From: Candidatus Kuenenia stuttgartensis
GTDB taxonomy: Bacteria; Planctomycetota; Planctomycetia; Planctomycetales; Planctomycetaceae
Assembly: GCA_945861975.1 (NCBI GenBank)
Contig: CAMAXD010000016.1
Span: 1 to 35,904, forward strand
Direction: 5' to 3'
DNA length: 35,904 nt
Of the stretch, positions 9,951 through 22,599 are shown one piece after another; the first letter of the stretch is position 1; every line of letters starts with the position of its first letter. The notes below the pieces were generated by a model that searched no databases, was not told the DNA's origin, and was given only the letters and a program-made list of their open reading frames with translations. Position numbers and translations under genes: made by a program.

Positions 9951-10047
9951 AATGGTGTGCCCGCGTTCGCATTCGCTCACTTGTCACACCCTACAAGTGC
10001 AGGCTGAAATCTGCAGGGTGTGACAAGCGAAGCGACGGCACACCATT
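9951..10047. repeat. Long imperfect inverted repeat between sucB and lpdA
   Basis: The left arm (9951-9992: AATGGTGTGCC ... CTTGTCACACCCT) is mirrored by the right arm (10015-10047: AGGGTGTGACAAG ... GGCACACCATT). The 13-base and 11-base blocks match exactly; the sequence between them, containing CGAAGCGA-like bases, matches only partly. A small stem (TGCAG 9998-10002, CTGCA 10011-10015) sits in the centre. The element lies 19 bp upstream of the lpdA start, in the mRNA leader or intercistronic region. It looks like a mobile palindromic repeat, not a terminator, because no T-run follows. Confidence 0.8.
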
Positions 10048-17544: not shown

Positions 17545-20500
17545 ATGTTTCAACCTGTTTCTGACAGCAATTTTGTTACTGGCGAACATTCAGTTTTGAA
17601 GTTTTGGGAGATCCAACAGATCTTCCGCCAACTTCGGCAGAAGAACGCCGGCCGCAAGCGATGGAGTTTTCTTGACGGGCCGATCACAGCGAACAACCCG
17701 ATGGGAGTTCATCACGCCTGGGGCCGCACGTACAAGGATACGTATCAACGCTTCTTTGCGATGACCGGACACGATCTACGATACCAGAATGGGTTCGACT
17801 GTCAGGGTCTGTGGGTCGAGGTGGAAGTAGAAAAACAGCTTGGCCTGGGGACTAAGACCGCAGTTCAAGAATTCGGCATTGATAACTTCGTCAATGAATG
17901 CAAACGACGAGTTCTCCGGTTTGCGGCTCGCCAGACCGAACAGTCGCAACGACTTGGCTACTGGATGGACTGGGACAATCCGACCCAGCTCCGACAATTG
18001 GCTGCACATGTTGGCACTGACGCCGAATTCACAATGACAACTCCGAGCGGCAAGACGGAAACGGCGAAGGCTCATCAACTGGTTGAAAAGCTAGGCAACC
18101 AGGAATGGGGCGGCAGCTATTTCACATTCAGCACCGAGAACAACGAAACCATCTGGACCTTTTTGAAGAAGTGCTTCGAACGTGGCAAAATCTATCAGGG
18201 CCACGACGTCATGCCCTGGTCCGGCCGTGGCGGAAGTGCGTATTCGCAGATGGAGATCGCCGAAGGCCGCAAGCTGACGACGCATAAGAGTGTTTTTGTG
18301 CGGTTTCCGATCAAGAGGGAAAGCAATGGGAGTGGTGTGAAGAATGGGAATAATGACAGTCAGTCACATGACTCCTCTAACTCCCATTCCTCTCATCAGG
18401 CAGCACAGGAATACCTCCTCGTCTGGACCACAACCCCGTGGACACTCACCAGCAACGTCGCCTGTGCGGTGAATCCTGATCTGCACTACATCAAGATCCA
18501 GACGAAACGTGACAATGCGATCTACTACTTCGCAAAAGACAACCTGAACTTCCAACGCCTGTCCACCGAATTCAAAGACGGGTTCGGTCGACCAGAATGG
18601 AAGTGGCCGGAAGGCGTGCCGAAGCTCAAGACGCTGGCGCAGATCTTCAAAGAACAAGGCGGATTTGAGGAACTCGGTACGCTCAAGGGTGCCGAGATAG
18701 TTGGCTGGAAATATGACGGGCCATTTGATGAACTACCGGCCCAGCAAATGGATGGCGGGTGCCCGGTCGATGAAAGCAACCTTGGCAAATGTGGAAAGTC
18801 ATGGCACAAAGTCATCGACGGTGGACGCGACTCGCGCGGCAGCGCGAATGTCGTTGCGGGTGAAGGCACCGGCATTGTTCACATGGCTCCGGGCTGCGGG
18901 GATATCGACCACAAGATCGGTATGTCCGTCGGCATGCCGGTGATTGCCCCTCTGAAAGATGACGGCACGTATGATGAAGGCTTTGGCGAATTCACGGGAC
19001 TCGAAGCCATCTCGCCAAAAACGGCTGAACTGGTGTTCGAGAAGCTCAAGGCGAAAGGAATGCTGGTTGCCGTTGAGACGTATCCGCACATTTATCCTCA
19101 CTGCTGGCGAACGGGTGATGAACTGGTCTTCCGATTGGTTGACGAGTGGTTCATCAACATGGACTGGCGTGACGAGATCAAAGATGTGACGCGCCAGATC
19201 AAATGGTTGCCGGACAGCATCGACGGACAAGAACGCGAGATTGACTGGTTGACCAACATGGGCGACTGGATGATTTCCAAAAAACGCTTCTGGGGACTCG
19301 CCCTGCCGATCTGGGTCAACGAAAACGATCCATCAGACTTCGATGTGATTGGCTCACTGGCAGAACTCAAAGAACGCTGCGTTGAAGGCTGGGGAGATTT
19401 CGAAGGCAACACGCCGCATCGTCCGTGGATCGACGGAGTCATCATCGAAAGTCAAACTCCCGGCAAAGAAGGCCAGCGAATGCGCCGCATTCCGGACGTG
19501 GGCAACCCATGGCTCGACGCAGGCATCGTGCCGTTCAGTACGATGGGCTACAACACGAACCGCGAAGAATGGCAGAAGTGGTATCCGGCGGATTTGGTCA
19601 CAGAATGCTTCCCTGGCCAGTTCCGCAATTGGTTCTACTCGATGTTGTCACTGTCGACGATGATGCGTTACGACGAAGCGGACAACGCTGAAGATAAGAA
19701 GCCGTTCCGCACTCTGCTTGGGCATCGACTTGTTCAGAACGAACAAGGCAAGCCGATGCACAAATCCGACGGTACGGCAATCTGGTTTGAAGAAGCCGCC
19801 GAACAGCTAGGCGTCGACACCATGCGATGGATGTACCTGGCTCAGAACCCGGCTCAGGACCTGCGATTTGGAACTCGTCACGGCGACAAACCCGTGACAC
19901 TTCAGACACCGGATGGGCCAATCGACAAGACGTTGGAAGGGGTTGCAACTTGTATGGTGACGAGCGGTCCGGCGGATGAGACTCGCCGACAGATCCTGAT
20001 CCCATTGTGGAACTGCTACAAGTTCTTCGTGGACTACGCGATCGCGGATGGCTTCGGGCCCAGTGACGAGCTGCGCAGACGAGTTACGCTATGTAGCCAT
20101 CTCGCTCCGCGAGATGGCTACATAGCAATCGCAGAACGTCCTGAAATCGATCGTTGGATTCTGTCCAACCTGCAATCGCTGATCGAAGTCGCTCATCGTG
20201 AAATGTCGAACTATAACGCCCCGGCGTTCTGTGCGGCAGCAGCCGGTTTCATTGACGATCTCAGCAACTGGTATATCCGTCGCAATCGCCGTCGCTTTTG
20301 GCGATCGAAAGATGCGAGCGATACGGACAAGAACGCGGCGTATGAAACGCTCTACGAAGTGCTCGTCACGTTGTGCCGATTGCTGGCCCCGAGCATTCCG
20401 TTTCTGACGGAGCGGATGTATCAGAACCTGGTGCTTGGCCAGGGGTTTTCGGATACAGGTTTTCAGTTTTCGGACAATCGCAGTGAAACCGAAGCGTCTG

Positions 20501-21354
20501 CCCCCCTCACTTCCGAAAACCGAAAACCGAAAACCGAAAACCCACTGCCCTCCTCAGTCCATCTCTGCGACTACCCTACCGCCGACGCATCGCTGCTCGA
20601 TGCGGACCTTAACCTGCGCATGGCGTCCGCTCAGAAGGTTGTGCGACTCGGTCATAAGTTGCGGGAAGAATCGAACTTGCGAGTTCGTCAACCACTGGCT
20701 GAACTACGGTTTGCGTCGTCCAATGCCGACACAGCGGCAGCCATTGAAAAACTTGGCGACGTGATTGGTGAAGAGCTGAACATTCAAAAAGTGATTCGTC
20801 AGGATAACCTCGATTCGCTCGTGAAGTACGCTTACAAGCCGAACCTGAAAACACTCGGACCGAAGTACGGCAAGTTGCTGAACGCACTGCGAACCAAACT
20901 GCCGGAACTCGGTGACGCCGTTCTGGCTCCGCTCCGTCGCTGCCAGAATCTGACCGTGGAACTAGAGGGCCAGTCGGTCGATCTGACTCCGGAAGATGTC
21001 CTTGTCAGCACCGAGCAAGCGGCTGAATGGGTCTGTGCCAACGACGCTGGCATTCAGGTGGCCATCAGCACTGTGCTGACTCCGAAACTCCTCCGCGAAG
21101 GTATGTCTCGCGACTTCGTCCGCCAGGTCCAGCAGGCCCGCAAAGACGCCAATCTGAACATCCAGGATCGCATCAAGGTTGAATATCACTCACAAGATAA
21201 TACCGTACAAGCCATGGTCGCCGAATGGGGCGACTACATTCGCGGCGAAACTCTTGCGGACTCAATTGAGTTTTCTATGTCCGCCGGGATAGAAACGAAA
21301 TCCGTCAATGTTGGAGAATCGGTTGTGAACATCTGGATTGTGATGTCTTCCTGA
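17545..21354 (+). CDS. ileS: Isoleucyl-tRNA synthetase, divergent type with GVHH in place of HIGH
   Basis: A 1269-residue class I synthetase, about 150-200 residues longer than type-2 IleRS. The Rossmann N-half is identified by '[10 protein letters not shown]' and '[20 protein letters not shown]'. The HxGH tetrad is replaced by Gly54-Val-His-His57. The next signature reads '[14 protein letters not shown]' instead of 'GWDCHGLPVE'. The editing domain (about 190-500) keeps '[16 protein letters not shown]' and '[16 protein letters not shown]' (441-456). '[16 protein letters not shown]' follows. The KMSKS loop is 'PMHKSDG' (737-743), keeping the second Lys (740). The anticodon domain contains '[12 protein letters not shown]' and '[16 protein letters not shown]'; the C-terminus has 'EELNIQKV'. 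Three repeat-derived segments inflate the protein at about residues 257-289, 848-861 and 967-1000. It charges tRNA-Ile. No T-box or other leader control is seen. Confidence 0.93.
18325..18389. repeat. Inverted-repeat, low-complexity insertion in the ileS editing domain
   Basis: AATGGGAGT (18325-18333) is the exact reverse complement of ACTCCCATT (18380-18388). A second copy, GAATGGGA (18342-18349), pairs with TCCCATTC (18382-18389). The encoded stretch is Ser/Asn/His-rich ('[15 protein letters not shown]'), unlike the rest of the protein, and lies between 'FVRFPIKR' and '[11 protein letters not shown]', where other IleRS have a short connection. The exact borders of the insert are uncertain. 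Confidence 0.6.
20088..20126. repeat. Perfect 18-bp palindrome with 3-nt loop inside ileS
   Basis: The arms 20088-20105 and 20109-20126 (right arm GCGAGATGGCTACATAGC) are exact reverse complements around TCC. The unit is 39 bp, exactly 13 codons, so the frame is kept. It is read as '[13 protein letters not shown]' just before the conserved '[13 protein letters not shown]'. Confidence 0.9.
20443..20543. repeat. Inverted TTTTCGG-repeat element inside ileS
   Basis: The left arm 20443-20474 and right arm 20512-20543 are 32 bases each and match as reverse complements at about 27 positions. Both are built from a 7-base unit TTTTCGG / CCGAAAA (four units on the right, degenerate on the left). The segment is read as a Ser/Lys/Asn-rich linker ('[15 protein letters not shown]') between 'MYQNLVLGQ' and 'VHLCDYP'. 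Confidence 0.85.
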
Positions 21355-22086: not shown

Positions 22087-22599
22087 ATGATTGCCCTTTT
22101 GCCATTGTTGTCTCTTGAGCCACAGCTTCCGTGGTTTCCGTGGTTTCCGTGGTTTCCGTGGTTTCCTGTAGGAAACGAGAGCGTCGTCATTATTTTGCTG
22201 GCGTGCCTTGCCCTCGAAGGTGTGAACATCTGGCGAATCCTCACAGCACACCTTGATCCGAAGTCGCCGCCTGACCCCACTGCTGCTCTGCGTTTCAAAC
22301 CACCTTCAATCGTTGTTCTTCGCCTTCTGTCTTTTCTATGGTACCTCTTCCACATGCTCAGTGCGGGGGCGGTTATTGAGATATGCAAGTACCAGACATT
22401 GCATGCTGCCAAGACCGGCGACAAAGTCATGGGGCTGATATGCGGGTTCGGAATGCTGGGAGCGTTTAATGTTTTTCTTGCTCTGACTGCCAAGGCAATA
22501 ACAATCAGTCACTCATTTTTTGCTCGACTCTGGCGATGTCGATTTCTGATTGACATCACCTTTAAAGCCACTGTCTTCGCATACGCACTGGCCAACTAA
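22087..22599 (+). CDS. Small membrane protein with N-terminal PWF tandem repeat
   Basis: 170 residues from ATG 22087; no strong ribosome binding site is seen, and the true start could be downstream of the repeat. The N-terminus is 'MIALLPLLSLEPQL' followed by four PWF repeats encoded by a 9-bp tandem repeat. Hydrophobic segments follow: 'SVVIILLACLALEGVNIW', 'VVLRLLSFLWYLFHMLSAGA', 'VMGLICGFGMLGAFNVFLAL' and 'FLIDITFKATVFAYALA', giving about four membrane helices separated by short polar loops. No family is recognised. The hydrophobic pattern supports a coding region, but the repeat-derived N-terminus and weak start leave doubt. Confidence 0.5.
   Translation: MIALLPLLSLEPQLPWFPWFPWFPWFPVGNESVVIILLACLALEGVNIWRILTAHLDPKSPPDPTAALRFKPPSIVVLRLLSFLWYLFHMLSAGAVIEICKYQTLHAAKTGDKVMGLICGFGMLGAFNVFLALTAKAITISHSFFARLWRCRFLIDITFKATVFAYALAN
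22129..22164. repeat. Four tandem copies of CCGTGGTTT, followed by a palindrome
   Basis: The 9-base unit is repeated four times without error and is in frame with the membrane-protein ORF. It is followed at once by GTTTCCT-GT-AGGAAAC (22161-22176), a perfect 7-bp stem. The array length could vary between strains by whole codon triplets. Confidence 0.9.

Follow-up and report, generated by a model that had tools for sequence, protein, structure and literature searches.

An In-Frame Palindrome in a Planctomycete ileS Gene as a Probable Collapsed Remnant of a GTAG REP Doublet

The ileS Gene and Its Palindrome

The window (the whole stretch of DNA that was analysed, 35,904 nt) carries at 17545..21354 on the plus strand a frame of 1269 amino acids, which hosts the insert and is identified as ileS from its open reading frame, NCBIfam match and Pfam-type domains. 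The best NCBIfam match is ileS TIGR00392, with E 3.3e-174 and a score of 581 bits, which falls short of the curated cut-off of 621; the domains found are tRNA-synt_1, Anticodon_1, which starts at residue 869, and DUF5915. Within this conserved protein gene, at 20088..20126 of the plus strand, lies a perfect 39-bp palindrome: the arms, 20088-20105 and 20109-20126, pair at 18 of 18 positions around a TCC loop (20106-20108), as had been claimed in an earlier note made from the sequence alone. With loops of up to 10 allowed, it is the longest perfect hairpin of the whole window, and its 18-bp arms exceed the longest arm in each of 20 first-order Markov shuffles of the window (8-12 bp), so that a chance palindrome is rejected. 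The predicted RNA fold of 20068-20146 reaches -38.5 kcal/mol, compared with a mean of -20.1 (sd 3.0) for shuffled sequences (z -6.1).

The palindrome was also said to occupy exactly 13 codons. Its length does equal 13 codons, but it is displaced by one base from the codon register: it begins at position 3 of codon 848 and ends at position 2 of codon 861. The inserted peptide of 13 residues, delimited by the frame, the homologues and a structure model, corresponds to codons 849-861 (20089..20127, plus strand). The frame is unbroken through the palindrome and both flanks, and the peptide would presumably be translated. In an AlphaFold2 model of residues 700-1060, predicted with 54 of the 75 available relatives as input (mean pLDDT 72, parts under 50), residues 850-861 form a coil between helices 841-849 and 867-888, with a block pLDDT of 69 for the insert compared with 88 and 90-97 for the adjoining helices. 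A Foldseek search with this model returns IleRS structures, which confirms the IleRS fold and nothing further; sequence alignments to solved IleRS also break at 261-288, 769-863 and 963-1003, among other places.

The REP Family and Its Putative Transposase

The left and central part of the palindrome is a complete REP unit, GTAGC-CATCTCGC-TCC-GCGAGATG, at 20093..20116 on the plus strand, with a GTAG tag (20093..20096), an 8-bp stem and a 3-nt loop. The tag is read directly from the sequence and recurs in the genomic copies, which are built alike; these copies agree with the palindrome up to 20116, the end of the REP unit, and then diverge. On the minus strand, 20109..20121 holds the remaining half of an inverted partner REP, GTAGCCATCTCGC, including its CTAC tag at 20118-20121, an assignment that follows from relatives in which the full partner is present at this place. 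The ileS copy consists, in consequence, of one REP unit and half of an inverted partner, and its membership in a GTAG REP family is well supported.

This family is abundant in the source genome. A 119-base query yields partial copies on three other contigs, which end at the end of the inner hairpin, and the 17-mer GTAGCCRTCTCGCTCCG, with at most one mismatch, is matched 29 times in forward and 25 times in reverse orientation, 54 in all, compared with 0 and 0 for the reversed control. The reading of the palindrome as a unique element is rejected on these approximately 54 family copies; the earlier note had named the lack of any other copy in the genome as evidence that would speak against a mobile element, and this lack is not found. 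Among the 59 genomes searched, the 17-mer is matched in 18, the source included, with 29-54 copies in six congeners (again counting the source), 26 in the family member G040 and 1-7 in each of eleven others. Within a subset of the 54 matches, the 34 placed REP units, 26 are arranged in 13 head-to-head pairs (REPINs, or BIMEs) with an outer span of 115-169 bp, and two lie within long frames with a protein family match, namely ileS and metH. The collapsed core, on the other hand, occurs a single time in the source genome, which is a draft of 612 contigs with 94% completeness. A search for repeated collapse in 18 genus genomes found none, save one match with 3 mismatches in G011, located in a stop-to-stop frame of 251 aa.

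A RAYT-like gene of 224 aa lies on contig C122, directly between two REP pairs that are similar by eye. Its product matches Pfam Y1_Tnp with 29.5 bits, above the cut-off of 23, and NCBIfam REP_Tyr_transpos NF047646 with E 1.3e-15 and 57.6 bits, below the strict cut-off of 80; it also contains a HIH motif and a later tyrosine (YIANN). The genome holds five Y1_Tnp matches, and the C122 gene is the one flanked by this REP: the loci of approximately 3 kb around the other four lack the GTAG REP. No PADLOC family was matched at E up to 0.001 in a search for a defence association of the C122 gene. The probable agent of mobilisation for the REP family is a RAYT (HuH-Y1) transposase.

The Same Site in Related ileS Genes

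The comparison of ileS covered 110 loci (80 named loci and a further 30; L056-L165), 87 of which entered the shuffle scan, the gene-wide scan and the tree set. The 23 left out were mostly second copies under G handles, together with L158, L165 (G013) and L160-L164, whose ileS genes are without such an insert. At the same codons as the palindrome, a full in-frame doublet of this REP type is present in L057 (which also figures as the congener G014), L064, L072 and L094. Its left REP reads in frame as SHLAPRD, SHHAPRD, GHLAPRD or SLHAPRE, followed by the spacer, and its right REP as ERDGY, or SDDGY in L064; in L159 a contig end falls inside the right REP, of which the right half alone is present. 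In most of the other homologues from outside the genus the loop is short, with the form FDPxxxxVPVADRPEIDRW.

The comparison of ileS with and without the element, which had been proposed as a check, thus separates the two states, and the residues prove, as claimed, to be unexpected in IleRS: they are absent from the short-site homologues. Neither are they conserved in the absence of a nucleotide palindrome, since SHLAPRD and ERDGY co-occur with hairpins in the homologues shown. The possibility that they are native IleRS sequence, palindromic by accident, would agree with their position in frame in a conserved gene; it is nonetheless refuted by the short-site homologues, by the REP copies elsewhere and by an arm length beyond that of the shuffles, and retains practically no credence.

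Intermediate and divergent states are also observed. The site in L063 has the same length as in the window, with changed letters, and is possibly a decayed collapsed copy; L067, like L063 a Fuerstiella relative, shares this length and also differs in its letters. The residues DGY occur alone, without a hairpin, in L058 and L063, where they are read as remnants, and in L058 a further repeat seems to stand beside the remnant right end. Other repeats are found at the same place: a GTAGGACGGCTC doublet in L117, a GTAGGACGGGCACTC doublet in L076, a long inverted repeat in L124, a GCGAGCGGCAGGGC element in L056, L059, L065 and L068, and, by eye, another GTAGCC doublet in G129. Other repeats also fill the site in L056, L065 and L066, which are the closest relatives in which it can be read, and for this reason the immediate precursor allele was not found.

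The inverted-repeat score exceeds all 100 mononucleotide shuffles at 12 of the 85 ileS sites that are spanned among the 87 loci, a count in which the rows are not independent (several congeners and the duplicate pair L073/L146 were kept) and L159, cut by the contig end, figures among the misses. For three of these 12, an equally high score is reached once elsewhere in the gene. Across 170 genomes of the family, the filled-site pattern is matched at 11 places in 10 genomes, six of them outside ileS; of the five within ileS, four are loci already in the comparison and G129 is new.

In a FastTree phylogeny of 86 rows, calculated with the insert regions masked and with L159 dropped as too short, the filled sites are scattered. 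L094 stands beside the short-site L079 (support 1.0), and L072 beside L073 and its duplicate L146, both with short sites (0.985); L124 and L117 each fall inside an otherwise short-site group (1.0 and 0.999, respectively), L126, a member of the L124 group, lacks a readable site, and L076 stands beside L090 with weak support (0.485). This scatter favours repeated insertion. The flanking residues TPVL are common to L072, L094, L076 and L117, however, and a single ancient insertion followed by many losses, or an exchange of gene segments, may be the cause instead.

Other Intragenic Inserts

The second REP location in a long frame, metH, carries the same doublet complete and in frame in the source genome, with the right tag changed to GCAG. 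It lies on a metH fragment, identified by its Met_synt_B12 domain, at 1-1227 of contig C402 (L017), and is common to four congeners; counting the source, it is present in five of the 17 genus genomes with a match. The other 12 have different repeats (G017, G001 and G005), a short site (G008, G003, G009, G002 and G013) or no match to the site motif (G011, G007, G010 and G006). Among the five genomes with the doublet, identity is 95-97% in the REP units, 70% in the spacer and 82-83% in the coding DNA on either side, values that count gaps as differences and are descriptive.

This constancy of the REP units relative to their flanks, together with the strong predicted RNA hairpin, would fit a hairpin that is kept in ileS for a function, such as slower translation or a regulated mRNA structure, with its likeness to REP reflecting domestication. 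Such retention appears unlikely in view of the 73 of 85 ileS sites whose inverted-repeat scores stay within the range of their shuffles, and of the Fuerstiella relatives L063 and L067, which preserve the length of the site with different letters.

A gene-wide scan of the 87 ileS loci, performed with a fixed score threshold and without shuffles, reveals strong inverted repeats only at residues ~258-292, 403-418, 710-716, 842-866, 962-1003 and 1137-1146. Besides the palindrome site at 842-866, there are accordingly five more IleRS loops with in-frame inverted repeats, distributed over different planctomycetes. In the window, a second inverted-repeat insert of ileS is located at 20443..20543 on the plus strand (residues ~965-1003). 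It is in frame and imperfect, with 32-nt arms (84%) that are longer than those of the palindrome, and includes repeats of the heptamer CCGAAAA at 20513-20542. This insert is part of the permissive-loop pattern and not of the REP family. At the corresponding loop, relatives contain other inserts, some of them composed of short repeats of ~7 bases in inverted pairs.

Several further repeats were recorded alongside these inserts. A second abundant inverted-repeat family, GCGAGCGGCAGGGCGTSAGCCCTCCG, has 68 copies in the source genome and 237 in G001 (controls 0), and also occurs in ileS of the congeners L056, L059, L065 and L068; it is absent from the 35,904-nt window at up to 3 mismatches. The window also contains a perfect 9-base tandem repeat, TTCCGTGGT, of 4.4 copies at 22127-22166, in overlapping frames on both strands, and an imperfect 19-bp inverted repeat (89% complementary, 16-base spacer) at 9977-10030.

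A broader and rather doubtful generalisation would be that a few loops of essential planctomycete enzymes, six in IleRS and one in MetH, act as recurrent landing pads in which unrelated hairpins repeatedly insert in frame, replace one another, nest and collapse, the intragenic REPs remaining more constant than the codons around them. If this were true, the constancy of REPs in genes would mean either repair by copying from repeat to repeat or a selected role of the hairpin.

Origin of the Palindrome

With high probability, a permissive loop of IleRS once received a REPIN in frame, the central part of this REPIN was lost afterwards, and the palindrome is what is left. The proposed series of events, whose order in this lineage is an inference, would begin with the entry of the REPIN (two GTAG-tagged REP hairpins in inverted orientation), presumably moved by the RAYT of the genome, into the loop preceding Anticodon_1. 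Its survival would be explained by a loop that tolerates extra residues and by the lack of a stop, in the frame used, across both REPs; the insert may be nearly neutral for the enzyme. The middle of the doublet may then have been lost by deletion between the direct repeats GCGAGATG, or between copies of GATG alone in the case of the GCGTGATG partner variant, which would keep the frame and leave a single long palindrome.

The arithmetic of this deletion can be followed in the relatives. In L072 the direct repeat common to the two REPs is GCGAGATG, at a distance of 87 bp, and in L057 it is GATG only, at 84 bp. Removal in silico of one repeat and the DNA between the two converts the L057 doublet exactly into the 29-nt core of the window, and the L072 doublet into the same core with one difference. 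Both distances are multiples of three because the reading phase is common to the two REPs (RDE...ERDGY), and for the same reason the deletion keeps the frame. Confidence in the reading as a whole is slightly lowered by the short repeat in the congener doublet, of only 4 bp, where the deletion would have occurred.

The deletion by itself does not yield the five outer pairs, GCTAT/ATAGC. At these positions the left side reads GCAAA or CCAAA in the relatives, and the right side reads ATTGC in L058; this mismatch implies that later changes or template-switch repair are needed after the deletion, and the outer pairs could come from such a template-switch correction. Perfection of palindromes by template switching is a known process, and the whole palindrome might have arisen in this way, from a single inserted REP through an inverted copy of its 5' tail, GCTATGTAGC, made during replication, with no doublet as precursor. 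The outer arms, which differ from the relatives on both sides in a matching manner, would fit such an event. It is nevertheless quite unlikely, since the right REP end or the DGY codons are present at the site in L057, L058, L063 and L159, and since deletion from a doublet yields the core directly.

A further explanation is that the palindrome exists in the assembly alone, the assembler having fused the REP units of what is in reality a doublet. Assembly of REP doublets is difficult, and the source genome is a draft of many contigs. At the join, however, the stretch common to the two REPs of a doublet on one strand is no longer than 8 bp (L072) or 4 bp (L057), because the loops TCC and GGA differ, and common assembly k-mers are longer than this. 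The frame and both flanks are moreover intact in the single assembly of the organism that was examined, and an artefact is considered very unlikely.

Under the preferred reading, a collapsed REPIN, successive stages of one process are on display within the same few codons of an essential gene: an empty site, a full doublet, a collapsed palindrome and possible decay. The ileS site would then allow a natural test of the entry of bacterial hairpin repeats into proteins, of their trimming with the frame preserved, and of whether the encoded residues are neutral.

Comparison with Known Systems

The earlier note had likened the palindrome to the Rickettsia palindromic elements (RPE). The likeness holds for in-frame insertion of a palindrome in protein genes, for the many relatives in the genome and for the existence of homologues without it, but the element is a GTAG REP associated with a RAYT. 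RPE-4 and RPE-6 are assigned to the CGTC superfamily, whose repeats apparently have no dedicated transposase, in PMC3733652; the tag of the ileS palindrome is GTAG. Membership among the RPEs is rejected on this difference in tag, as judged from the published classification. Nor would the palindrome be a complete element: the ileS copy is most probably a collapsed derivative, and the relatives hold the full doublet.

The closest known system is that of GTAG REPs and REPINs (BIMEs) with their RAYT (TnpA-REP). The GTAG tag, the 8-bp stem, the 3-base loop, the head-to-head doublets and the repeat-flanked RAYT-like gene are all shared, whereas the ileS copy has collapsed to one long palindrome inside an open frame and the RAYT is here known from sequence. 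A REP with a perfect 8-bp stem and a 3-nt loop is described for Stenotrophomonas in PMC8266576, and planctomycete Y1 transposases are listed in PMC6006769. According to PMC3733652, GTAG and CGTC REPs occur in over 80 species, with Planctomycetes and R. baltica named. REPs as such are in this way described for planctomycetes, a group for which the earlier note knew of no such description; a planctomycete insert in ileS was not found in a literature search that covered few subscription papers.

Both components of the proposed history are in print, and the kind of event is in this sense already known. Deletion between the two REPs of a REPIN, giving a long palindrome with a single REP, is mentioned in PMC3116915 as an unpublished observation in SBW25; the case described here differs in being in frame in ileS and in having uncollapsed relatives at the same site, protein genes not being mentioned in the available part of that article. 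REP monomers and dimers within genes, including the tRNA synthetase genes of X. oryzae, E. lithoralis and S. alaskensis, are reported in PMC3733652, as are different REPs at about the same recB site in X. campestris and X. oryzae. The present insert resembles these in lying within an open frame of a tRNA synthetase gene, and differs in that one loop contains several hairpin families across planctomycete lineages, with one copy collapsed. The more interesting part is this repeated occupation of one ileS loop: its use by different repeat families is a checkable claim that goes beyond the list of intragenic REPs in the available portion of PMC3733652.
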